Shown piece by piece: positions 17,566 to 32,220 of a DNA stretch of 32,407 bases. A model generated the notes under the pieces. That model was not told where the DNA came from, did not search any database, and saw only the letters and a program-made list of their open reading frames with translations. The number at the start of each line of letters is the position of its first letter. The stretch's first letter is position 1. The translations under genes were made by a program, and so were the position numbers. Origin of the DNA: Candidatus Kerfeldbacteria bacterium CG15_BIG_FIL_POST_REV_8_21_14_020_45_12 (lineage in GTDB: Bacteria > Patescibacteriota > Patescibacteriia > UBA9570 > XYC2-FULL-38-9); the NCBI GenBank assembly GCA_002781785.1, contig PFGC01000044.1, positions 1-32,407 on the forward strand, written 5' to 3'.

Positions 17566-17688
17566 GAGTCAGTAAGGAAATGATAGTTTTTTTTGGCTTA
17601 TATTAGCGGATGATTGATACGATGAGAGGAAGAATAGTGAGTTTTCTAGGTGAAAAGGAGTCACTTTTCTTGTGTCATCATGATGTTG

Positions 17689-17716
17689 TTGACACGCCTT
17701 GTCAAGGTGTTACGAT
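17689..17716 (+). promoter_or_regulatory. Sigma70-type promoter of GC-rich unit A
   Basis: TTGACA (17689-17694), 16-nt spacer, TACGAT (17711-17716). Confidence 0.65.
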
Positions 17717-17757
17717 CGCTTGCCCCTCGCTGATGAGGGGTAAAACTGGAGGTAGTG

Positions 17758-18405
17758 ATGAAGAAGGTTCTGTTGCTGACGCTCGGTCTCGGATTGGGCT
17801 GGCCGGTCGTCGCTAGGGCTCAGGACAGCAGTGCGGACGACGGACTGATGTTGGAGAACATCCAGCTGCGCCTCGGGTTACACGGGGCCTACCAGCTGGG
17901 TGACGGCCAGCGCCGTCCGGTGCAGCTGACGACGCACTTGATCGTGCCGAATGCTGCTAGCTGGTCTTCGCCGTGGCTCTACGGTGGAGTGCGGTTCACG
18001 CTTACGGAGCGGTGGTCACAGGACTCGGAGCCGGCACTCTTGCAGCGCTGGTCCATGGAGGTTCTTGGTGGCGTTGGAACCGAGCCGGACTCCAACACCC
18101 CGGCCGTGTCGGTTCGGGTGCAGGGCAGCTCGTCGCGCTTCTACCTGTGGGGCGATCTGGAGTACTGGCCGCTTCTGGACAACACCGTGTACGGCTTCCT
18201 GGTGGCTCAGGCCAAGGTTGGGTCGGTGCAGCTTGGGGTGGAGAGCGAGAACAGGATGCCGCTGTCTGCGCTTGAAGATCGCTACGTGTCGGTTGGTCCG
18301 AGCGTGTGGGTTCCGGTCGGGGACCACGTGCTGCTGGCTACGACTACCTACTTCACGTGGGAAGGAGGCGTGTTTCAACGCTTCTATTTTCACCTGATGT
18401 TCTAA
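17758..18405 (+). CDS. Unit A: predicted secreted beta-barrel-like protein of unknown function
   Basis: SD GGAGG before ATG; signal peptide MKKVLLLTLGLGLGWPVVARA^QD; beta-rich body ending in FYFHLMF. GC-rich (hand count 40/60 in 18061-18120). Confidence 0.7.
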   Translation: MKKVLLLTLGLGLGWPVVARAQDSSADDGLMLENIQLRLGLHGAYQLGDGQRRPVQLTTHLIVPNAASWSSPWLYGGVRFTLTERWSQDSEPALLQRWSMEVLGGVGTEPDSNTPAVSVRVQGSSSRFYLWGDLEYWPLLDNTVYGFLVAQAKVGSVQLGVESENRMPLSALEDRYVSVGPSVWVPVGDHVLLATTTYFTWEGGVFQRFYFHLMF

Positions 18406-18409
18406 CTAT

Positions 18410-18449
18410 GAGTCGAACTGCCTTCCTGGCGGTCCGGCTCATCTTTTTT
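18410..18449 (+). terminator. Unit A terminator
   Basis: GAGTCGAACTGCC ttcc TGGCGGTCCGGCTC hairpin (with G-U pairs) followed by ATC-T6. Confidence 0.7.
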
Positions 18450-18479
18450 AAAAAAAGAGACCGCTTCCTCCATGCGGTC
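18449..18479 (-). terminator. Unit B terminator, sharing the T6A7 tract with unit A
   Basis: Minus strand GACCGC atggaggaa GCGGTC followed by TCTC and T7. Confidence 0.8.
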
Positions 18480-18491
18480 AAAATACTATCT

Positions 18492-18992
18492 TCAGGTGGG
18501 TGGTCGAGAAGTCTGACCGAGCACCAGACTGAGACCTTGGTTGCGGGCCAGGCTTGTCATGAAGACGCCAGCTTGCAGGTACCGCCAGAAGTCACCTGAG
18601 GCTGGATCGTTCCTGGGCTGGTGCGGAGTGTTGATGCCAGAGGGTGTGCCGATGGCTCCGGGTGTCATGATCCCAGGTCTCGCGTGAGCTGGTTGGACGG
18701 CGCTGCGCATCCCGCGAAGGTCTACTTCTGAGATGAGCTCAGCTTCGAGACAAAGCCGGCAGAGCTGCGCCATCATCTTGTACCAGATCTCTTCTTGGGG
18801 AGCGCCGCGTCCCATGTCGCCCCTCGTGAGGTCGTGGTAGCAGCGCTGTAGGAACAGCTCGAGGGCGCGCCTGCTGGGCAGCTCCCGGTAGTCTGATTCC
18901 ATGCGTGCGGAGATGGCTCCAGTGCGCACGGCGTCTCTGTACTCTTGCGACTGCAAGAGTCTTGGCATGATGCTCGAGATCGGGTCCCGCAT
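18492..18992 (-). CDS. Unit B: hypothetical protein, 166 aa
   Basis: Strong SD AGGAGGTG before ATG (agaaggaggtgaaccATG); MRDPISSIMPRLLQSQEYRDAVRTGAISARMESDYREL...; GC-rich. Confidence 0.65.
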   Translation of the reverse strand: MRDPISSIMPRLLQSQEYRDAVRTGAISARMESDYRELPSRRALELFLQRCYHDLTRGDMGRGAPQEEIWYKMMAQLCRLCLEAELISEVDLRGMRSAVQPAHARPGIMTPGAIGTPSGINTPHQPRNDPASGDFWRYLQAGVFMTSLARNQGLSLVLGQTSRPPT

Positions 18993-19026
18993 GGTTCACC
19001 TCCTTCTAGTGACAGGTGGTGTTGCC

Positions 19027-19055
19027 ACCGTAGCAGCCGTTTAATTTTTTGTAAA
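19027..19055 (-). promoter_or_regulatory. Sigma70-type promoter of unit B
   Basis: Minus strand TTTACA (19050-19055), 17-nt spacer, TACGGT (19027-19032). The -35 lies at most about 10 nt upstream of the polA 3' end at 19061. Confidence 0.55.
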
Positions 19056-19060
19056 CTAAA

Positions 19061-21793
19061 TTATTCAAGAGGCTTCATTTCTCCCCAGTTGGTTCCGGCA
19101 GCTAGATTAACTACCAAGGGAACGTCCAGCTTGTAAATTGATTCCATAATTTTTTTAATTTTTGCAGCCTCTTTTTCTATTGAGCTTTTGTTGACCTCTA
19201 AAACCAATTCATCGTGGACCTGGAGAAGGATAAGGGCGTCTATTTTTTTATCGTCGATAGCGTTTTGGACGTGGATCATGGCAAGCTTCATTAAGTCGGC
19301 GGCAGTGCCTTGGACAGGCATGTTGACAGCAGCGCGTTCGGCGGCGGCAGAGAGCATTCGGTTTGAAGAGGCCAAGTCTGGTATTTGCCGTTTACGGCCA
19401 AATAATGTTTCAGCGTAGAGATGTTTGTGCGCAAAGACCTTAACTTCCTCGATGTAGGCGGCAATGCCACTGTGGACTGAAAAATATTTATCTAAAAAGG
19501 CGCGGGCTTCATCTCTAGAAACACCACTGTCTCGCATAATTCCTTGGACCCCCATGCCGTAGAGGATGCCAAAGTTAATGGCTTTAGACTGGCTGCGCAT
19601 GGCTTTGGTGACTTGTTCTGGGGTGATGTCATTGAGTTCTGCTGCTGTCCGAATATGAATATCTTCACCTTCTTGAAAGGCTTTCATCATTAACTTATCT
19701 TTGGCTAGGTGAGCCACTACGCGAAGTTCAATTTGAGAATAGTCTAGAGACAGTAGTAGTTTTCCTTTTGGTGCCACAAAGGCGCGGCGAATTTTCCGGC
19801 CCAACTCTGTCCGGATAGGAATGTTTTGCAGGTTAGGATCAGAGGAAGCCAGGCGACCAGTAGCGGCCACGGTTTGACTATAGGTGGTGTGAACGCGTCC
19901 GGTTTTTGGATTTACTAGCAAAGGCAAGGTGTCAACATAGGTTGAGGTCAGTTTTGAAAGCTCACGATGCTCCTCGATTATTTCAATTAATGGATGGGTG
20001 CCGCGCAGTTTTTGTAATTCTGGCGCAGCAGTAGAGTAGCCAGTTTTAGTTTTTTTGATTTTATCAGTTGGTAGTTGCAGTTTTTCAAACAAAATTTCTT
20101 TGAGCTGAACACTGGAGGCTAGATTAAAATCAGTTCCAGCAGCTGTCCGCGCTTCGCTCTCTAGAGTTTTAATTCGGAGGTGTAATTCTTTCGACATGCT
20201 TGCTAAGAAATTTACATCAAGTTCGACGCCGGCTATTTCCATTTGCACCAAAATTTGAATGAGGGGGATTTCCATGTCTTGCAGAAGGTCGGTGAGCCCT
20301 TTTTCTTCTAAACGTTGTTTCATGGTTTGATAGAGCCGCCAGGAAAAATCAGCATCCTCACAGGCGTACCAGGAGGCCTTTTCGACGGGGACATCGGCCA
20401 TGGTTATTTGGTCTTTACCTTTACCGATTAGGTCTTCAATGGGCTGCATCTCATGGCCGTACTCAACAAAGGCCAGATTATCTAAGCCGTGCCCTCGTCC
20501 ACCCGCGTTGATTAAAAATGAGGCGATCATGGTGTCAAAAGCTACGCCCCGCACCTGAACCCCAGCTGTACTAAGAACCTTAATGTCGAACTTTAGATTG
20601 TGACCAGTTTTTTTTATTGAAGCGTCTTCTAGAATTATCTTGATAGACTCAGGCACGGATTTACCACAGGCTAAGTAGTAGCCCTCGGATTCTTTCCAGG
20701 AAAAAGAAATTCCGACTAAGTCATCTTGTAGTGGATTCAATCCCGTTGTCTCAGTGTCAAAAGCAAAGACCTTTTGTTTTTTTAGCTCTGCGGCAAGAGA
20801 TTTAATCTCAGCATCAGTTTGAATACAGGTGTAGGAAAAGCGCTTGTCATTGAGACGAGCTGCCTCCGCCTGTTCAGCCTGCTCAGCTGGAGCAAAGAGG
20901 CCTTCATTGATTTCAAAGCCAGGTAAAGAATTTAATTGAGGAAGCAGTGATTTGAATTCGTATTGTTGAAAAAGCTTGGTGATACGTGACCGATTGTAGG
21001 ATCCAATTTCCGCGTCTTCTAGAGTAAACTGAATAGGAGCATCTTTGGCTATGGTAGCGAGCTCTTTTGAAAGAACTGCCTCAGCTTGGTGTCCAGCTAA
21101 GGCTTTGTGATTTCGTCCAGTGATTTCATCGAGATGAGCATATACTCCATCGATATCACCGTATTTTTGTAGGAGATCGGTGGCGCCTTTTTCTCCAATG
21201 CCCTTAACTCCAGGAATGTTGTCTGAGCTATCGCCGCGCAAGCCTTTATAGTCGATGATTTGTTCAGGAGTTAAGCCATGTTTTGTTTTTACCATAACCG
21301 GGTCGTAGATCAGGGTTTCTTTCATTCCCTTAATGAGCTTCATGACTCTGGTGTCTTCATCGACAAGTTGTAGGATGTCATGATCTCCAGTCAGAATAAT
21401 TGTTTCGATATCTTTATTATCGAACTGAGCGCAAATTGTTCCAATAAGATCATCTGCTTCGTATTCTGGAACAGCATAAGTTGGAAAATCAAAGGCCTCC
21501 GTCATTTTTTTGACAATTGGAAATTGGCTGATCAACTCCTCTGGAGTAGGTGCCCGATTGGCCTTGTAAGCTGGGAAAATTTTATGACGGAAAGTTTTTC
21601 CTTTGCTGTCGTAGGCGATGGCAACGTGGGTTGGCTTGATATCTTTAAGAGCCTTGATCAGGATGAGTAAAAAGCCGTAGACGGCATTAAGAGGCTCACC
21701 CTTAGCATTGTTAAGTGGAGGGAGGGCGTGAAAAGCTCGGTGAATAAGAGCGTGCGCGTCGATGATTAGGAGTTTTTGCTTATATTTCTTCAT
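19061..21793 (-). CDS. polA: DNA polymerase I with 5'-3' and 3'-5' exonuclease domains
   Basis: LLIIDAHALIHRAFHALPPLNN...YDSKGKTFRHKIFPAYKANR...KVFAFDTETTGLNPL...LLLSLDYSQIELRVVAHLAKD...RSQSKAINFGILYGMG...LQVHDELVLEV. Confidence 0.97.
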   Translation of the reverse strand: MKKYKQKLLIIDAHALIHRAFHALPPLNNAKGEPLNAVYGFLLILIKALKDIKPTHVAIAYDSKGKTFRHKIFPAYKANRAPTPEELISQFPIVKKMTEAFDFPTYAVPEYEADDLIGTICAQFDNKDIETIILTGDHDILQLVDEDTRVMKLIKGMKETLIYDPVMVKTKHGLTPEQIIDYKGLRGDSSDNIPGVKGIGEKGATDLLQKYGDIDGVYAHLDEITGRNHKALAGHQAEAVLSKELATIAKDAPIQFTLEDAEIGSYNRSRITKLFQQYEFKSLLPQLNSLPGFEINEGLFAPAEQAEQAEAARLNDKRFSYTCIQTDAEIKSLAAELKKQKVFAFDTETTGLNPLQDDLVGISFSWKESEGYYLACGKSVPESIKIILEDASIKKTGHNLKFDIKVLSTAGVQVRGVAFDTMIASFLINAGGRGHGLDNLAFVEYGHEMQPIEDLIGKGKDQITMADVPVEKASWYACEDADFSWRLYQTMKQRLEEKGLTDLLQDMEIPLIQILVQMEIAGVELDVNFLASMSKELHLRIKTLESEARTAAGTDFNLASSVQLKEILFEKLQLPTDKIKKTKTGYSTAAPELQKLRGTHPLIEIIEEHRELSKLTSTYVDTLPLLVNPKTGRVHTTYSQTVAATGRLASSDPNLQNIPIRTELGRKIRRAFVAPKGKLLLSLDYSQIELRVVAHLAKDKLMMKAFQEGEDIHIRTAAELNDITPEQVTKAMRSQSKAINFGILYGMGVQGIMRDSGVSRDEARAFLDKYFSVHSGIAAYIEEVKVFAHKHLYAETLFGRKRQIPDLASSNRMLSAAAERAAVNMPVQGTAADLMKLAMIHVQNAIDDKKIDALILLQVHDELVLEVNKSSIEKEAAKIKKIMESIYKLDVPLVVNLAAGTNWGEMKPLE

Positions 21794-21849: not shown

Positions 21850-21895
21850 TCTATAGGCTGCTCAGAACCAAGGCGTCCTGCCTGAGGAGTTGACA

Positions 21896-22414
21896 GTGCT
21901 TCGCATCGAGCAAATTGCCAAACCAAATCAGCCTCACAACCGTCATCACATCGGAGCCAGATCTCGGTGGAAGGCCAAGGCACAGAGTCCCAAGGTGACT
22001 CTGCCTGAGTGCTACCATGAGGGGTGGCACGCGCTGTTCGGGAACATGACGCCCTACGAAGCTACCCTGTTCGTGGAGGTCGTCATGAACGAACGCACTC
22101 GCCTGGGTTGGGATAAGGAGCGCCTCCTGTCCGTGCGGTGTTCGATCATCCGCTGCACCGAGGACTTGCGTCAGCGCAGACGGATCGATCCGTTGGAGCA
22201 ACGGCCGGTCAAGCGCGACGCTCCGATTCGATTCGACCACGTTCCCGGTTGGTGGAGGGAGCTGCATGAATTTCTGTTCGGCGACCTGAGATCTGTCGCA
22301 GAAATTCAAGCCTTCATCACTGAGCTGATGTTGCCGAACGCCAAGTTCGACGTGGCGCGCATCGTGGCGTTGCAGGAGGAGGTCAAGAGGAGGCACGGCC
22401 TGAGGGTCGTCTAG
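21896..22414 (+). CDS. Unit C: hypothetical protein with HExWH motif and internal repeat; GTG start preferred
   Basis: SD TGAGGAG ends at 21889, six nt before GTG at 21896 (the tracked TTG at 21890 abuts the SD). MLRIEQIAKPNQPHNRHHIG...YHEGWHALFGNMTPYEATLFVEVVMNERT...; GC-rich. Confidence 0.65.
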   Translation: MLRIEQIAKPNQPHNRHHIGARSRWKAKAQSPKVTLPECYHEGWHALFGNMTPYEATLFVEVVMNERTRLGWDKERLLSVRCSIIRCTEDLRQRRRIDPLEQRPVKRDAPIRFDHVPGWWRELHEFLFGDLRSVAEIQAFITELMLPNAKFDVARIVALQEEVKRRHGLRVV

Positions 22415-22443
22415 GCTGTACCATATGGGCAGCTTCTTTTTTT
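22413..22443 (+). terminator. Unit C terminator
   Basis: GGCTGtaCC atat GGgCAGC stem followed by TTC and T7. Confidence 0.6.
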
Positions 22444-22476
22444 AGGGAGCGTGGCTATATTGACGGAGATTTTTTT

Positions 22477-22830
22477 ATGTGTGAAGATGGCTCCGCCTTC
22501 TTGGAGGATGGTATGAGTGAGAGTGTCGCGGCCGCAGCTGCCGCGCCTGCTCTTTGCAGGGAGCAGAGCTGTGTCCTGGAGACTTGCCACGAACAGAGCG
22601 CCTACTGCGCTGCGCACAACGAGTGGATCTCGGCGCAGGAACGGCTGAGCAAAGCAGCGTTTCTGTGGTGGATCGGTTGCGGGATCGTGGGCGTACTGAT
22701 CTCGCTGGTCAGCGGCTCTCTGGTCTGGGCGCTGATCCTGCCGTTTGTCGTGGCAGTTGCTGTGTTGGTGGTTGTGTACATTCGCCTGGAGCGGATGTTC
22801 CGTCGCCTCCCCGGCTCGCGGCGGGCGTGA
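22477..22830 (+). CDS. Unit D: small membrane protein with Cys-rich N-terminus
   Basis: Candidate -10 TATATT and SD-like cggaga before ATG; CREQSCVLETCHEQSAYCAAHNEW then two TM segments (FLWWIGCGIVGVLISLVSGSLVWALILPFVVAVAVLVVVYI); GC-rich. Confidence 0.65.
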   Translation: MCEDGSAFLEDGMSESVAAAAAAPALCREQSCVLETCHEQSAYCAAHNEWISAQERLSKAAFLWWIGCGIVGVLISLVSGSLVWALILPFVVAVAVLVVVYIRLERMFRRLPGSRRA

Positions 22831-24541
22831 ACAATTGAGTTCCCCCGCTGTCTTTTTTTAAATTAGAATTGGTGCGGTGCTGTTTGATAAATTGACCAAG
22901 GGTGATGGCGAATAGTCCAAGGATCACTAAAATCATCAGTCCGTACTGAGGGGGTTCTTTGGTGGTTTGTAGTCCGGTGCTGACAGTGGATCCACCACTG
23001 GCTTGAGCTGGGCTGATCCAGTTCTCTTCATTAACAGTTTGTATCAGGTCGCCATTTCCGCGTGGTAGAACACGATACTCGCCATTACTTTCAGAAACAA
23101 TACCCTGCACGCTCAGTCCGGTGCCTTCAGTGAGTATGGTGCTATCAATCTGAGCGCCCTCTTTAAACTGTAGTGCTGTAGAGTCGTTAATCATTCCACC
23201 TGTGCTATTTACAGTAGTAAGTGCACCTTCAAGGTGTATTAACATGCCTTCTAGGTCCTCAGTTATTTCGAAGACGTCTCGGCTAACCAGTTTTTCGTCG
23301 CTGGCAACCACTTGAATATCTTGTGCTGACTCAGTTTTAATTCTGGTTTCGCCTCGAGAGGTAGATTTGATTCCCGAGACGGTTAGGCGGTCTCCAGTTT
23401 TTAGTTCCGGAAAATCTTTTTTATAGGAATAAACCTGTATGCCGGCAGTATCATCCTGAATGTAAAAGTACTGAGAACCAAAAACGCTTGGCAAGACAGT
23501 TACAACCCCCTCAACAGTGGCTGTTGTATTGTCATCGAGCGCTCGAAAAAGATCGATGGATAAAAGATCGGTGTCTGCCTGCTGATCTGTGTTGGGGTCA
23601 GCTTGAGCGGTCTCGTTTTCAGTTGCGGTGAATATATTGACCTGTCCGGGGGTTGGCTCGAACGTCCATTGCCAGTCTGAGTTGGAGCGAGCCCAGGCCC
23701 AGCCACTCTCGGCCGATTCATAAGTGGTGCCGTGAACAATTGAGCCATATGGATCAATCAGATAAACGGTGTCCCCGGTATTGTTTAGGTTAATTTTACT
23801 GTCACCAATTTCAACTGTGAGTATTTCGTTGGCGACAAGAGTTGTATTTTCGAAGGTGTAGTAGGTGTTGGTATCTGTTAGCTGCCACCCGGCTAGGTTA
23901 AGTGACCCGCTACCCTCGTTAACAAGCTCGATCCATTCGTCGGTCGTATCTAGTCCTTCTGGGTCCGGTAGTAGCTCGTTGATGAAAATCTGGTCGCTAG
24001 TTTGGTAGGGTGTTTCGGTATCAGGTAATGTAGTGCTCGCATTTGTGGTGTCATCACTGATGCTGTTATTTTGGGAAATGTTTTTTTCTCGTGGTGTGAT
24101 TCGATCGGTCCACTGCCACTCATTTTCAATAAGAGCCCAAGAGCTTGCGCTGGAGGCTTCTTCGTAGGTCGTGTCGTCAACTAGTGTGCCGTTTGGCTGA
24201 GATAGAGTTACGCTATCGCCAGAATTGTTTAGGTATATCCGTGACGAGGTATGTGTGACTATAGTGTAAGCGCCTGGGCTAATGCTTGTTTCACCAATTG
24301 ATGATTCGATGGCGTACTGTTTGCCGGAAGAGTCACCAAGTATCCAGCCAGTTAGGTCAATGGTGTCATTGCCGGTATTGTGCAGTTCAATAAATTCTTC
24401 TTCTCCAGTAGGTGGAGCTGGGTATACCTCAGAGAGGACAATATCCGTTGAATAGATGGTGGTGTTAGTTTCGGTTTCGCAAGCGATGGTTGGTGAGGCA
24501 AGGAGGGCGATTAGGGCAACGATAGTTAGATAGTAACGCAT
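22709..24541 (-). CDS. Lamin-tail-domain protein (two LTD repeats plus OB-like region and C-terminal TM); C-terminus runs antisense into unit D
   Basis: IVLSEVYPAPPTGEEEFIELHNTGNDTIDLTGWILGD and IFINELLPDPEGLDTTDEWIELVNEGSGSLNLAGWQLTD; signal peptide; TM YGLMILVILGLFAITLGQFI. Confidence 0.8.
   Translation of the reverse strand: MRYYLTIVALIALLASPTIACETETNTTIYSTDIVLSEVYPAPPTGEEEFIELHNTGNDTIDLTGWILGDSSGKQYAIESSIGETSISPGAYTIVTHTSSRIYLNNSGDSVTLSQPNGTLVDDTTYEEASSASSWALIENEWQWTDRITPREKNISQNNSISDDTTNASTTLPDTETPYQTSDQIFINELLPDPEGLDTTDEWIELVNEGSGSLNLAGWQLTDTNTYYTFENTTLVANEILTVEIGDSKINLNNTGDTVYLIDPYGSIVHGTTYESAESGWAWARSNSDWQWTFEPTPGQVNIFTATENETAQADPNTDQQADTDLLSIDLFRALDDNTTATVEGVVTVLPSVFGSQYFYIQDDTAGIQVYSYKKDFPELKTGDRLTVSGIKSTSRGETRIKTESAQDIQVVASDEKLVSRDVFEITEDLEGMLIHLEGALTTVNSTGGMINDSTALQFKEGAQIDSTILTEGTGLSVQGIVSESNGEYRVLPRGNGDLIQTVNEENWISPAQASGGSTVSTGLQTTKEPPQYGLMILVILGLFAITLGQFIKQHRTNSNLKKDSGGTQLFTPAASRGGDGTSAPGECTQPPTQQLPRQTAGSAPRPESR
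22821..22859 (+). terminator. Unit D terminator with the stop codon inside the hairpin
   Basis: GCGGG cgt GAAC aattga GTTC c CCCGC tgtc T7; unit D stop TGA at 22828-22830. Confidence 0.8.
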
Positions 24542-26231: not shown

Positions 26232-27725
26232 TTAGTACGCTCTGGCAAAAATAGCTCTTTGCTTGGCTGGTTGGTCACAAAGTATGCAATTTGTGGCCGG
26301 AGTGTTTTGTTCGAAAGGAATACAACGAATCGTGGCCTTGGTCTCATCTTTTATTTGGTCCTCACACTTAGCTTCCCCACACCAAGACAATGAGAAGAAT
26401 CCGCCCGCTTCAATTTTTTCTTTGAACTCGTTGTAATTTTCTAGTACGAATGTACGGGAGGTTAATCGCTCTTGGGCGTTGTTATAAAGCGTAGCTTGAA
26501 TGTCAACTAGAGCTTGGCTGATGCTATCAGCAATACTATCAATACTGACTTGTTGTTTGTCGTCGGCTGTGCGACTAACCAGAGTGACAGAATGGTTTTC
26601 TAAATCACGTGGGCCAATTTCAATTCGAACTGGCACGCCCTTCTTTTCCCATTCGTAACTTTTTTCTCCGAATGTAAAATGATCTCTGTCATCAATGTGG
26701 ACGCGAATACCATTCTGCGCACACTCAGATTTGATCAGGTCAACATGCGTGAAGACTTCGCTATTATCTTTACCTTCTTTGATAATCGGAATGATGACAA
26801 CTTGAGTTGGCGCTAGGGCTGGTGGAACAATCAAGCCACGATCATCTGAGTGGGACATGATTAGAGCTCCCATTAACCTGGTGCTAACTCCCCAGCTCGT
26901 GAGCCAGGCGTATTGTTCCTTACTCTCTTGATCAAGAAAAGTGATGTTAAAAGCCTTTGAAAACCCCTGGCCTAGTTCGTGAGAGGTTCCAGATTGTAGA
27001 GCTTTACCATCCTGCATCATGGCTTCAATCGTGAAGGTTTTGTTGGCCCCAGCAAATCTTTCTGAAGGTGATTTTTCGCCAGCGATGACTGGCATGGCCA
27101 TAACTTCTTCGGCAAAGACCCGGTATACTTCTAACATCTTAGCAGTTTCTTCGGCAGCCTCATCTTGAGTGGCGTGAGCTGTGTGACCTTCTTGCCAGAG
27201 GAACTCTGAAGTACGTAGAAAAATACGGGTACGCATTTCCCAACGCATAACATTAGCCCATTGGTTAATCAGCATCGGTAAGTCACGGTATGAACTAATC
27301 CAACGAGAGAAGGAGTCGTGAATAATTGTTTCAGAGGTTGGCCTGATGACATACTCTTCTTCAAGTTTGGCGTCTGGGTCGACAATGACACCACCTTCTG
27401 GACTAGCCTTTAGTCGATGATGGGTGACTACGGCACATTCTTTGGCAAAGCCTTCTACATGATCGGCTTCACGACTAAGAAAAGACTTGGGAATCAAGAG
27501 TGGAAAATAGGCATTTTGGTGTCCGGTCTCTTTAATTTTATCGTCAAGAATTCTTTGGATTCGCTCCCAGATTGAAAAACCGTATGGTTTAATTATCATA
27601 GCTCCGCGAACAGGGGAGTTTTCGGCCATGTCGGCGGCGCGGATAACATCTAGGTACCATTGCGAATAGTCTTCATCTCGCGTGGTGATCGCTTTGTCTT
27701 TGTGGGGGTTTTTGTTGTTGCTCAT
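26232..27725 (-). CDS. proS: Prolyl-tRNA synthetase, archaeal/eukaryal-like type
   Basis: MSNNKNPHKDKAITTRDEDYSQWYLDVIRAADMAENSPVRGAMIIKPYGFSIWERIQ...RPTSETIIHDSFSRWISSYRDLPMLINQWANVMRWEMRTRIFLRTSEFLWQEGHTAHAT; no INS domain; C-terminal Cys-containing domain ending in AY. Confidence 0.93.
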   Translation of the reverse strand: MSNNKNPHKDKAITTRDEDYSQWYLDVIRAADMAENSPVRGAMIIKPYGFSIWERIQRILDDKIKETGHQNAYFPLLIPKSFLSREADHVEGFAKECAVVTHHRLKASPEGGVIVDPDAKLEEEYVIRPTSETIIHDSFSRWISSYRDLPMLINQWANVMRWEMRTRIFLRTSEFLWQEGHTAHATQDEAAEETAKMLEVYRVFAEEVMAMPVIAGEKSPSERFAGANKTFTIEAMMQDGKALQSGTSHELGQGFSKAFNITFLDQESKEQYAWLTSWGVSTRLMGALIMSHSDDRGLIVPPALAPTQVVIIPIIKEGKDNSEVFTHVDLIKSECAQNGIRVHIDDRDHFTFGEKSYEWEKKGVPVRIEIGPRDLENHSVTLVSRTADDKQQVSIDSIADSISQALVDIQATLYNNAQERLTSRTFVLENYNEFKEKIEAGGFFSLSWCGEAKCEDQIKDETKATIRCIPFEQNTPATNCILCDQPAKQRAIFARAY

Positions 27726-27762: not shown

Positions 27763-29016
27763 CTAAGGGCGGGGGGTATATTTTCCGGCGACGATCCACT
27801 TATACGTAGTCATCTCGGCTGGCCCCATTGGTCCCCTGGCATGTATTTTTTGTGTTGAGTTACCTATCTCAGAACCAAGGCCGAACATAGAGCCGTCAGA
27901 AAAACGTGTGGAGGCGTTGGTGTAGACTACCGCAGCATCTACGAGAGTCTGAAAAAGGTTGGTATTAGTTTTTGATTCTGTAAGGATAGCCTCAGAGTGT
28001 TTTGAGGAGTAGGTGTTGATGTGTTCGATCGCTTGTTCTATGTTGCCAACTATTTTTACAGACATGCTTTGACTTAAGAATTCGCGACCAAAGTCAGTTG
28101 TCTTGGCTTTTTTGAGCAACTTGCTTGGGTAGCATGTTTTTAGAATAGCGTAGCTGCCTGAGTCGGCATATATCTCCACATGTTTTGTTTGCAGTAGCTC
28201 AGCCACTTGAGGGAGGAATTTTTTAGCGATCTTTTTATGTATAAGGAGTGTGTCTAGCGCATTGCAAACACTTGGTCGCTGGGTTTTGGCGTTGAACACA
28301 ACGACGGCAGATTTTTTTAGATTGGCTGTGGCGTCTACGAAGGTATGGCAAACTCCGGCGCCGGTTTCAATCACAGGAACCGTTGCGGTTGTCCGAACGA
28401 AGTTAATGAGCCTCTGGCTGCCGCGTGGAATGACAAGGTCGAGATAGCCGTCTGCAGTAATGAGATCAGTAACGAGCGCGCGATTGGTTGGATCAACCAT
28501 CTGGACGGCGTCTTTGGTGATGCCGGCTTTTGTGAGCGCAGCGTGAATCACTTTCATTAGTGCGGTATAGCTATACTTGGCCTCTTTCCCTCCTTTTAAG
28601 ATGACAGCGTTGCCTGATTTCAAGCAAATGCCAGTCACATCTGTCGTGACATTTGGTCGTGATTCATAAACAATACCAATAACTCCAAGTGGCACACGTT
28701 GTCGATAGAGCTTTAATCCATGACGTGTGCGGTGGTTGTAGGTTTTTCCAATTGGATCTGGAAGATCTACAAGTCCTTCAATCTCTTGTGCCATGCCTTC
28801 AATACGCTCTACTGAGAGCAGCAGGCGGTCACGCATAGGATCATTGAGGTCGAGGGCAGCAGCATCTTTTGAATTTGCTCTTAAAATAGACGTTGCTTGT
28901 TCGCGAAGTTCAGTGGCAAGATACTTCAAGGCTCGCTGACGCGTGGCATGTGATAATACATTTACCGACTTGGCAGCGATCTTGGCACGTTTGAGTTGTG
29001 GAAGAAGTTTGTTCAT
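27763..29016 (-). CDS. proA: Glutamate-5-semialdehyde dehydrogenase (gamma-glutamyl phosphate reductase)
   Basis: LYRQRVPLGVIGIVYESRPNVTTDVTGICLKSGNAVILKGGKEA...FGLGSEIGNSTQKIHARGPMGPAEMTTYKW. Confidence 0.96.
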   Translation of the reverse strand: MNKLLPQLKRAKIAAKSVNVLSHATRQRALKYLATELREQATSILRANSKDAAALDLNDPMRDRLLLSVERIEGMAQEIEGLVDLPDPIGKTYNHRTRHGLKLYRQRVPLGVIGIVYESRPNVTTDVTGICLKSGNAVILKGGKEAKYSYTALMKVIHAALTKAGITKDAVQMVDPTNRALVTDLITADGYLDLVIPRGSQRLINFVRTTATVPVIETGAGVCHTFVDATANLKKSAVVVFNAKTQRPSVCNALDTLLIHKKIAKKFLPQVAELLQTKHVEIYADSGSYAILKTCYPSKLLKKAKTTDFGREFLSQSMSVKIVGNIEQAIEHINTYSSKHSEAILTESKTNTNLFQTLVDAAVVYTNASTRFSDGSMFGLGSEIGNSTQKIHARGPMGPAEMTTYKWIVAGKYTPRP

Positions 29017-29055
29017 AGGGAAATATGCTGATCACTATATCATGCGATTTTTTAT

Positions 29056-29113
29056 AAAAAAAGGGGCAGCGCAGATCTTCAACCGATGCGGATGTCGGCG
29101 AGCTCTACGCTGC
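29056..29113 (-). terminator. Unit E terminator overlapping the unit E stop codon
   Basis: Minus strand GCAGCGTAGA...TCTGCGCTGC arms with inner CCGA/TCGG stem, then CCC and T7; stop TAG (29105-29107) in the 5' arm. Confidence 0.65.
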
Positions 29114-29494
29114 GTCTGCGGTGATGAAGCTCACCTGCCGCAGATTATCCGCTCTCATTCTGCCAAGGCGCAGACGATGCAGACCTTCGCGCCAGTCATA
29201 GAGCACGTTGTCGCAGATGTGTCGCGGAGTCAGGGGCACGTAGAGGAGTGCCTCAGTCGTACGCACCTGGAGATTGATGCTGTCCACCCGCTCCGTCCAG
29301 GTGATCTCACACGGAATGAGCTTGGACAGCTCTCCGAGGGTGATGAGTCCAGCCTGGTCCTCGAAGAGAACGCAGCGGTCATCGCCTACCAGGAGCCGCT
29401 CGATGAGCGCCAGTGCCTGGTCGGGATCACGGGAAGGCGGGAATGTGATCTGAAGGGTCACGCGGTGCAGCGTGCCACCAGCCGGCGTTTTCAT
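29105..29494 (-). CDS. Unit E: hypothetical protein, 129 aa
   Basis: SD-like CGGAGCG before ATG; MKTPAGGTLHRVTLQITFPPSRDPDQALALIERLLVGDDRCVLFEDQAGLITLGELSKL...; GC-rich; own promoter. Confidence 0.6.
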   Translation of the reverse strand: MKTPAGGTLHRVTLQITFPPSRDPDQALALIERLLVGDDRCVLFEDQAGLITLGELSKLIPCEITWTERVDSINLQVRTTEALLYVPLTPRHICDNVLYDWREGLHRLRLGRMRADNLRQVSFITADAA

Positions 29495-29553
29495 GTTCGC
29501 TCCGATTCAGGTTGCTACTTTGAGGGGGATGAGACCCTAAAAATAGTGGCCTT

Positions 29554-29582
29554 GTTTTACCGCAGTCTTTATCATTCGTCAA
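29554..29582 (-). promoter_or_regulatory. Sigma70-type promoter of unit E
   Basis: Minus strand TTGACG (29577-29582), 17-nt spacer, TAAAAC (29554-29559). Confidence 0.5.
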
Positions 29583-29598
29583 TTCGTTTATACTTGAT

Positions 29599-29648
29599 AA
29601 AAAAAGACCCGCGCGGCTGCCTCTGGGGGAGAGGCAGTGTTGCGGGGT
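29599..29648 (-). terminator. Unit F (second proS) terminator
   Basis: Minus strand ACCCCGC aacact GCCTCT ccccc AGAGGC ... GCGGGTC followed by T7. Confidence 0.8.
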
Positions 29649-29681
29649 TGCGGTGAGCGTTGGTCCTAGAGGACCGCGTGC

Positions 29682-31268
29682 TCACCGTCGGTGAAGCTCC
29701 GGTCCGGGGCGAACCGGTCCAGGAAGACGAAGGCGCCTTCGCAGGGTTCCGGAAGCCGCACCGCAGGCCTGGTTGCTGTCCCCAGTGTTGATCGGGACGA
29801 TGTGCACGTGGAAGGGTGCGACGGAGGCGGGCCAGCAGATGCCGGCGTCGTCGCGGTTCTGATCCACGACGGCCTGCAGCAGCCGGGTGACCCCGATGCC
29901 GTAGCAGCCCATCCAGATGACCTGGTCTTTACCATTGGCGTCGGTGTAGGTCGCACCCATCGGCTCGGAGTAGATGGTTCCGAGCTGGAAGATGTGACCG
30001 ACCTCGACTCCATGGCTCTCGTGCAGGTGGCCCTTGTTGCAGTTCGGGCAGCCGTGTCCCTCGACCGCCGTGTGGAGATCTCGGAACTCGCTGGGCAGGG
30101 GCAGGTCCTCGGTGCCGAAGTTGACGTCGAGCGCGTGGTAGTCCGTGCGGTTGAGGCCGCAGAGGAAGTTGACCATGTCCTCGACAGACTTGTCGAACAG
30201 GATGCGACGGACATTCTCGAGCCCCAAGGGACCCGCGAAGCCGACCTCCGCACCCGTCGCGGCGATGACGACCGAAGCCGCCGCCGCTACGACGCTGTCG
30301 ACGTTCAGGGCGTTGCGCACCTTGACCAGGTTGATCTCCAGGTCTCCTCGGATGCAGACCGCCACCTCGAAGGGGTCGGTCTCGGCGTTGCAGGTGAGGA
30401 TGATGGTCTTGACCATGTGTCGTGCCGTGACGCCATCTTCACCGAACAGCGCTTCGAGCTCCTCCACGGTCTTGGTGCCGGGGGTGTGCTCGTTGCGCCG
30501 CGTGCGTCGATCCGCGTCGTACCCCTGCCGCGGCCACCGGCTGGTGGCGCGCTCGACGTTGGCGCCGTAGTCGCAGGAGTCGCAGGTGAGGAGGACATCC
30601 TCGCCTACGTCCGAGAGCGCCATGAACTCGGCGCTGCCGGAGCCGCCGATTGCGCCGCTGTCGGCCTGGACAGAGATGAGTCGGTGGAGGCCGACCTTGG
30701 CGAAGATCCGCCAGTACATCGCGCGGTACATGTCGAAGCTGCGACGCATGCCTTCTTCATCCACATCGAAGGAGTAGGCGTCGCTCATGTTGAACTCGCG
30801 GCCGCGCAGGAGCCCGCCGTGTGGGCGGGTCTCGTCGCGGTACTTCCAGCCGATCTGGTGGAAGTGCAGGCCGTCTTCGTCCAAGTCGCGCCAGGAGGAA
30901 GCCTCCGAAGCGGCGAGCCAGGTAACGACCTCCTCCGCCGTGGGGGCCAGCCCGTAGCGCTGACCGCTGCTGCTGGTGGTCTGGAACATCGTGCCGGAAC
31001 GCACGTACTTGTCCCAGCGACCCGTCTGCTCCCAGAGCTCAGCGGGCTGGATGATCGGCATCTGGATGTTGAGAACGTCGTCGTGCTCCATCTCGGCGAA
31101 GATGATCGCCTCGATCTTGCGGAGCACGCGCCAGCCCAGGTGGGTCAGCACGAAGACGCCGGCAGTCACCTGCCGGATGTAGCCAGCGCGCACCAGAAGG
31201 GCATGCGCGCCGGAGAGACCTTCTGCTACTTCACGCCGGGTCCTGGGGATGATCTTCTTCATCCGCAT
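29682..31268 (-). CDS. Unit F: bacterial-type prolyl-tRNA synthetase with INS editing domain; anticodon-binding domain truncated and possibly frameshifted
   Basis: SD AGGAGGT at 31274-31280 fixes the start at MRMKKIIPRTRREVAEG. TSEE-like region LAPTAEEVVTWLAASEASSWRDL; HQIGWKYRDETRPHGGLLRGREFNMSDAYSFD; CDSCDYGANVERA; INS-like VAVCIRGDLEINLVKVRNAL...GFAGPLGL; motif 3 MGCYGIGVTRLLQAVVDQNRDDAGICWP. Ends about 40 aa after VAPFHVHIVPIN. Confidence 0.88.
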   Translation of the reverse strand: MRMKKIIPRTRREVAEGLSGAHALLVRAGYIRQVTAGVFVLTHLGWRVLRKIEAIIFAEMEHDDVLNIQMPIIQPAELWEQTGRWDKYVRSGTMFQTTSSSGQRYGLAPTAEEVVTWLAASEASSWRDLDEDGLHFHQIGWKYRDETRPHGGLLRGREFNMSDAYSFDVDEEGMRRSFDMYRAMYWRIFAKVGLHRLISVQADSGAIGGSGSAEFMALSDVGEDVLLTCDSCDYGANVERATSRWPRQGYDADRRTRRNEHTPGTKTVEELEALFGEDGVTARHMVKTIILTCNAETDPFEVAVCIRGDLEINLVKVRNALNVDSVVAAAASVVIAATGAEVGFAGPLGLENVRRILFDKSVEDMVNFLCGLNRTDYHALDVNFGTEDLPLPSEFRDLHTAVEGHGCPNCNKGHLHESHGVEVGHIFQLGTIYSEPMGATYTDANGKDQVIWMGCYGIGVTRLLQAVVDQNRDDAGICWPASVAPFHVHIVPINTGDSNQACGAASGTLRRRLRLPGPVRPGPELHRR

Positions 31269-31410
31269 GGGACACCTCCTTTCATTGAATCGGCGGGTTA
31301 CGCCATGGGTTGTTGGGAACACACTTCTTGCAGATCCTGAAGGATACGAAAAAAGCGAGTAGCAGCACCTTATCTGATACTTTGAGTAATGTCTACCCCA
31401 GCTGTTTAGA

Positions 31411-32220
31411 CTAAAAAATTTGCGAAAGCTCTTTAGCCCGGAGGTAAGCAGCTTTAATCCCTTTGTACACTCGTAAGCCAATCCTTTCCGAGCGGAATAC
31501 TTTTAGCGCTGCGTCAGTGGTGCCTTTTTTTGAGGTGACTTTTTTACGAAGGGTGACGGCATCATCCTCGCTTTGGTCTAAAAGAAGAGCAGATCCACGA
31601 AGGGTTTGTTTTACCAGTAGGGTGGATTGTTCTTTGGTAAGGCCAAGCTTTTGGCCCGCGTCTATGAGGTATTCAGAGAAAGCAAAAACATAGGCCGGTC
31701 CAGATCCAGAAATGGCTGTGGCGACATTTATTAAATCTTCCTTTTTTACCTCAAGTTGTTTTCCAAAAGAGGCGAAGATTTTTCTGACGTCATTTTTTTG
31801 TTTTACTGATACTTGATTTGTGGCTATCCAGACAGTCATGCCCTCCTGTAGCTGGGCCGGTGTATTTGGCATGGACCTAACAGTGCGCGAATGTTTTGTG
31901 TGTTTCTTTAGAGTAGATAGAGATACCCCTGCCATTATTGAAATTAGGAGTGATTGTTTTGTGATTGATTTTCCCAGTAGCTCAAGAACGACTTGAGAGT
32001 CTTGTGGCTTAACAGCTACGATAATTGTATTAGCCTCGGCAACAATACTAATGTCGCTACTAACATTGATCTTTAAACGTCGGTGCAGGTCTTTTAGTCG
32101 AGGGAGGTGCAGGTCTACTATGGTTATTTCACTCGGCTTATAGGTTTGTGCGGAGATAAGTGACGACGTCATGGTTTCTCCCATAACTCCACCTCCAATA
32201 ATTACAATGTTATTGCTCAT
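31411..32220 (-). CDS. proC: Pyrroline-5-carboxylate reductase
   Basis: NIVIIGGGVMGETMTSSLI...VAVKPQDSQVVLELLG...VRSMPNTPAQLQEGMTVW...TAISGSGPAYVFAFSEYLIDAG. Confidence 0.95.
   Translation of the reverse strand: MSNNIVIIGGGVMGETMTSSLISAQTYKPSEITIVDLHLPRLKDLHRRLKINVSSDISIVAEANTIIVAVKPQDSQVVLELLGKSITKQSLLISIMAGVSLSTLKKHTKHSRTVRSMPNTPAQLQEGMTVWIATNQVSVKQKNDVRKIFASFGKQLEVKKEDLINVATAISGSGPAYVFAFSEYLIDAGQKLGLTKEQSTLLVKQTLRGSALLLDQSEDDAVTLRKKVTSKKGTTDAALKVFRSERIGLRVYKGIKAAYLRAKELSQIF

Follow-up and report, generated by a model that had tools for sequence, protein, structure and literature searches.

A shortened second ProRS gene in a Kerfeldbacteria proline operon is probably the scar of a deletion

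The stretch of DNA analysed here (the window, 32,407 nucleotides) is the whole of contig C41 of a Candidatus Kerfeldbacteria genome, which is assembled to 1.22 Mb in 64 contigs and is 94% complete. Among its proline genes lies an open reading frame, ProRS2, that encodes a bacterial-type ProRS and breaks off early in the anticodon-binding domain (ABD), with two frames open at its 3′ end and a terminator-like hairpin directly behind (Table 1). The locus therefore raises the question of whether ProRS2 is a specialised enzyme that has dispensed with its ABD or a gene in early decay, both of which had been offered in the original prediction. We consider it very probable that a deletion of about 1.5 kb left the short end of ProRS2 as its scar; the gene itself appears to be an accessory one in decay and not a new enzyme.

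Table 1. Coordinates of the features discussed, numbered from the first base of the window.
Feature	Position	Strand	Description
GC-rich islands	17650-19100, 21850-22900, 29050-31400		Positions in the window; also loci L148-L187
ProRS1	26232..27686	-	TIGR00408, 546 bits over the whole profile; PF09180 and HGTP_anticodon
proA, downstream neighbour	27763..29016	-	Translation; order as in G142; GC3 0.45
129-aa GC-rich ORF	29105..29494	-	Between the remnant and proA; GC3 0.73
Terminator-like hairpin with T-run	29599..29637	-	28 bases past the FADox stop; RNA fold z = -3.11 for 29580-29670
FADox remnant	29666..29761	-	Last 31 codons and TAG (VRLPEPCEGAFVFLDRFAPDRSFTDGEHAVL, then stop), in frame +1 relative to ProRS2; GC3 0.87
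TGA closing the ProRS2 ORF in frame 0	29682..29684	-	Reached through the FADox remnant read out of frame
Proposed deletion junction zone	29746..29766	-	Frame 0 signal stops and frame +1 starts; codon log-odds and homology boundaries
ProRS2 remnant	29763..31268	-	Bacterial-type core, INS and first ~18 ABD residues; about 502 codons; GC3 0.88
Shine-Dalgarno-like GGAGGTG	31269..31285	-	Upstream of the ATG at 31268; sequence
proC, upstream neighbour	31411..32220	-	Homologues in G142, G282 and others; GC3 0.39
proB (glutamate 5-kinase) 3′ end, cut by the contig end	32221..32407	-	Translation; resembles the G142 proB tail

From its best start, the ATG at 31268, the ProRS2 ORF runs for 528 residues on the minus strand. 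Pfam places tRNA-synt_2b (PF00587, E 4.9e-21) and tRNA_edit (PF04073, E 4.6e-18) on it; the class II core retains motifs 2 and 3, as judged from PF00587 and from alignment with 2j3l and 5ucm, and the INS editing domain matched by PF04073 sits between these two motifs, confirming the intact catalytic core and INS noted at the outset. Residues K287, D359 and H378 of the INS, which we take to correspond to the catalytic residues of the E. coli enzyme, are kept together with the class II motifs in ProRS2 and all aligned relatives. The 502 codons are free of internal stops, and no other lesion was seen in them. Three of the 59 strongly conserved positions are altered, at the high end of the distribution, and two changes, P130D (with a 3-residue insert) and E469D, are absent from close relatives, in which these residues are otherwise invariant. 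The branch leading to ProRS2 resembles that of G142 in length, and an AlphaFold model built from six sequences is mostly confident over the core, with pLDDT below 50 for residues 512-528 and no confident fold for the tail.

ProRS2 shares its core, INS and key residues with bacterial-type ProRS that carry an INS (TIGR00409; PDB 2j3l, 5ucm, 8w8j), to full-length members of which it is about 40-57% identical; unlike these, it has no ABD beyond about 18 residues, and its C-terminus derives from another gene read out of frame. The Pfam scan did not find HGTP_anticodon in ProRS2, the TIGR00409 match stops at profile position 489 of 568, and the match to an HMM of the C-terminal region, built from 103 homologues, ends at position 48 of 131, with frame 0 fitting that model only as far as ...NTGDSNQA. 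The ORF closes with ...VAPFHVHIVPINTGDSNQAC, an unrelated tail and then the TGA. The early stop is real as sequence, but the ABD in which it was thought to lie is recognisable only for those first residues.

The overlapping ORF (29666-30253, ending in TAG at 29666-29668) is present as originally described. Codon-position composition gives frame 0 a coding signature that ends at about 29763; frame +1 acquires one at about 29746 and keeps it to the TAG, scoring +13.7 bits over 27 codons with both other frames strongly negative. This second frame had been called more ProRS-like and attributed to a frameshift near 29745. One stretch of it, VFLD..FTDGE, does look ABD-like by eye, but HMM and shuffle tests gave no signal: the frame scored -3.2 bits against an HMM of 103 ABD regions, with 875 of 2000 shuffles as good, and 18.0 in Smith-Waterman comparison with the 103 ABDs, versus 19.2 for shuffles. 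As a positive control in the same Smith-Waterman test, a true ABD fragment of similar length gave 100 versus 22 for shuffles. The supposed likeness to ProRS is thus lost; the switch of frame stands, but it is the junction between two genes, and a "frameshift correction" would therefore yield a chimera rather than a ProRS.

Sequence comparison identifies the second frame as the C-terminus of a DAO-family FAD oxidoreductase (FADox). It ends ...FAPDRSFTDGEHAVL before its stop codon and aligns with the extreme C-termini of FADox from G142 (...FAPNRPINLDKKEHLVI), G231 (FAVDREFKHGEGLVL), G358 (YHVDRKFTSAEGMVI) and G282 (YAIGREFKPEHKVL), with a mean score against these four of 34.2, compared with 17.5±2.0 for shuffles, none of 2000 being as good. 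Three held-out FADox proteins that had played no part in forming the idea (G084, G062 and G009) gave 30.3, a score matched by none of 2000 shuffles and by none of 427 real C-termini taken from long ORFs of this genome; the leave-one-out scores of genuine FADox members in this test span 19-41, a range that includes the tail. Taken singly, the held-out G009 protein aligns poorly with it. In a blind search of the whole window with a FADox profile HMM the remnant came third in the list, at 2.4 bits (E 2.9), with an alignment that extends exactly to the final position of the model and the final residue of the ORF. This blind match is weak alone, which leaves position and the targeted tests to carry the identification. 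The remnant is close to ProRS2 in GC3 and unlike proC and proA.

The ancestral locus would have held, between proC and proA, an accessory unit of two genes, ProRS2 and then FADox. Deletion of some 1.5 kb would have removed the remainder of the ProRS2 ABD and all of FADox except its last 31 codons, joining the two pieces out of frame, such that ProRS2 would end in 26 nonsense residues read from the FADox remnant, and leaving the original FADox stop and terminator just past the junction. The equivalent two points in G142 lie 1534 nt apart, and neither the missing ABD nor the missing FADox was found on any other contig of the assembly. One deletion with its junction in the zone given in Table 1 would account at once for the loss of the ABD and of FADox, for the C-terminus in two frames and for the adjacent terminator. 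The original prediction was right that a hairpin with a T-run follows directly, but its view of the unit as deliberately short does not hold, because the terminator would end the downstream gene that was joined on; we infer that this hairpin once closed the two-gene unit at its 3′ end. The gene order in the window is proB-proC-ProRS2-(scar)-orf129-proA, where orf129 is an ORF that had no Pfam or NCBIfam match, is not part of the ProRS2-FADox pair of relatives and is missing at that place in G142.

The closest relatives of ProRS2 belong to other families of the same class and reach at most 57% identity (G142, followed by G282, G231, G358 and G018, with G098 more distant). In a quick tree without bootstrap, ProRS2 groups with G142, G282, G358, G018 and G231 in a six-row clade (SH-aLRT 98; 99 for the pair with G142), which is class-specific and occurs in about 2% of the 381 class genomes. 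Every sampled relative is full length with an ABD, and the truncation is accordingly not conserved in homologues, as it might have been in a specialised enzyme. FADox lies directly downstream of the ProRS2 relative in four class members (G142, G282, G231 and G358), and in G142 the window-like order proB-proC-ProRS-FADox-proA is found. The G142 ProRS2 (594 aa; L039:8737-10521) occupies the same operon position as that of the window; unlike the latter it has a complete ABD and ordinary GC, and the FADox of G142 contains one TAA stop. An intact downstream FADox is absent from the window, where only the 31 C-terminal codons of this DAO-family gene are kept and the rest is gone. The pair is not universal, as G018 and G098 have a ProRS2 or ProRS2-like gene without FADox, and in G084 FADox stands alone after proC.

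Two lesions were seen among these relatives. In the ProRS2 of G231 (L041:8795-8800) a TAG replaces the motif 2 tyrosine codon (KDA-stop-SF) in an otherwise complete gene, which could be a nonsense mutation or a sequence error, and in G142 (L039:8184-8189) an in-frame TAA, which could possibly be a sequence error, splits FADox downstream of a full-length ProRS2. Read together, they suggest that the module may be dispensable.

The genome holds apparent substitutes for both activities of ProRS2. ProRS1 is a complete archaeal-type ProRS, 58% identical to ProRS1 of G098, and is presumably the working enzyme, and contig C44 encodes a ProXp-ala-like protein of 162 aa (L209:1435-1923) that matches 5vxb with E 2.3e-28. 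ProXp-ala is a free-standing INS-like editing protein whose INS is related to that of ProRS2 but which, unlike ProRS2, consists of a single domain. Presumably ProRS1 charges tRNA-Pro and the ProXp-ala-like protein edits Ala-tRNA-Pro. Given a complete ProRS1 and this second protein, neither charging nor, probably, editing would therefore need the ProRS2 ORF. Early decay, one of the two fates first proposed, gains support from the full-length relatives, the FADox tail, the intact ProRS1, the ProXp-ala-like protein and the lesions in G231 and G142, and is favoured over a specialised enzyme. ProRS2, with a product that would have no ABD, is probably an early-stage pseudogene; it is likely to have been inactivated recently, with some residual function possible.

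The junction might instead be an assembly error or a minority variant in an organism that has an intact ProRS2-FADox pair. The division of a 94% complete genome into 64 contigs, and the position of the locus in a GC-rich island that differs from its surroundings and where coverage may be uneven, would allow this, but we think it unlikely, as the contig runs unbroken through the junction without a stretch of N there, the lost ABD and FADox sequences appear on no other contig, and assemblers rarely drop 1.5 kb unless a repeat is present, of which none was seen there. Rather less probable is a working ABD-less ProRS that acts as a specialised Ala-tRNA-Pro editor or activates proline for a non-tRNA substrate. 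The long open frame, the retained class II motifs and INS residues, the branch length and the confident AlphaFold core all speak for such an enzyme. Against it stand full-length relatives throughout, a C-terminus that is another gene's piece out of frame, the P130D and E469D changes at otherwise invariant residues and a module that is broken in G142 and G231 too; the presence of a ProXp-ala-like protein elsewhere in the genome also weakens the editing-specialist reading.

A simple frameshift within a shortened ABD, the second frame then being the remaining ABD, draws on the fact that this frame carries the codon signature of the gene and on the visual resemblance of VFLD..FTDGE to an ABD motif; the lack of signal against 103 ABDs by HMM and Smith-Waterman, in a test that readily picked out a genuine ABD piece, makes it very improbable. 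Two open frames at a 3′ end could also arise from programmed frameshifting that generates two C-termini, but no slippery heptamer is evident in the sequence at the switch, the second frame is part of another gene and the arrangement is seen in no relative, leaving this the most improbable of the explanations. Decay after a deletion that fused ProRS2 to the end of FADox remains the reading that we prefer.

Somewhat tentatively, and a little short of an even chance, we regard the window as holding the damaged remains of an accessory module not yet described, in which an editing-competent second ProRS and a FAD-dependent imino-acid oxidoreductase recur in or beside the proline-biosynthesis operons of small-genome bacteria that mostly have another ProRS, with a GC content almost always above that of the host genes. 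In the window ProRS2 lies beside proA, proB and proC and coexists with another ProRS; the second ProRS of relatives is short and INS-less in G142, G282 and G358 and archaeal-type in G098, none was seen in G231 (77% complete), and G018 has only a contig-edge fragment. The pro genes on either side are usually poorer in GC than ProRS2 and FADox (GC3 0.24-0.26 versus 0.87 and 0.79 in G358; 0.32-0.34 versus 0.72 and 0.59 in G282), the difference being smallest in G142. The nearest solved structure to FADox is 1y56_B (E 9e-37), deposited as sarcosine oxidase and taken by us to be a proline dehydrogenase beta subunit, and FADox probably acts on proline or a related imino acid. An aldehyde dehydrogenase gene of G358 (L042:11587-13206; GC3 0.82), nearest to P5C dehydrogenase/PutA domains, adjoins proA, divergent from ProRS2-FADox, and is a possible third gene of the module. 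The resemblance of FADox to 1y56_B and this P5C-dehydrogenase-like gene together make a link between the module and proline or a proline analogue plausible, and the module might handle such an analogue or confer resistance to one. A literature search found no paper describing any pairing of ProRS with a proline oxidoreductase in Patescibacteria.

ProRS2 sits inside one of the GC-rich islands of this genome, and at the same operon position it is GC-rich in the window and not in G142. Across the 516 kb of the genome that were sampled as stretches, GC content shows two modes, the second near 0.65, and 36 islands add up to 37 kb (about 7%). These islands (GC 0.55-0.67) contain genes with GC3 up to 0.97, often preceded by strong Shine-Dalgarno sites. 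One of them (L165:15484-17733) carries three ORFs that resemble lipoproteins; two of these contain repeated DGDG/CDG.DNDC motifs, which, we presume, recall MopE-like proteins of Myxococcota. Elsewhere in the window, the C-terminal part of a 610-aa ORF (22709-24541) runs antisense to a GC-rich ORF (22477-22830), as though inserted sequence had taken the place of the 3′ end that the 610-aa ORF once had. proC is present in this genome but was not found in four further genomes from its family that were searched (G001-G004), so that the whole proline operon may be a gain here or a widespread loss elsewhere. Gene transfer in Patescibacteria has been described in general terms (PMC12455944). Recent transfer from a named donor was considered and set aside: single-protein scans of genome and viral contig collections found nothing, plasmid and phage matches to ProRS2 were ordinary ProRS of at most 43% identity, and the tree shows no outside donor.

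Naming the event that most likely made ProRS2 removes a candidate "new enzyme" from consideration. The comparison with relatives also brings to light a ProRS-oxidoreductase pair that occurs sporadically in proline operons, and whose role, whether analogue handling, self-resistance or plain redundancy, is testable in full-length copies such as those of G282 or G358.
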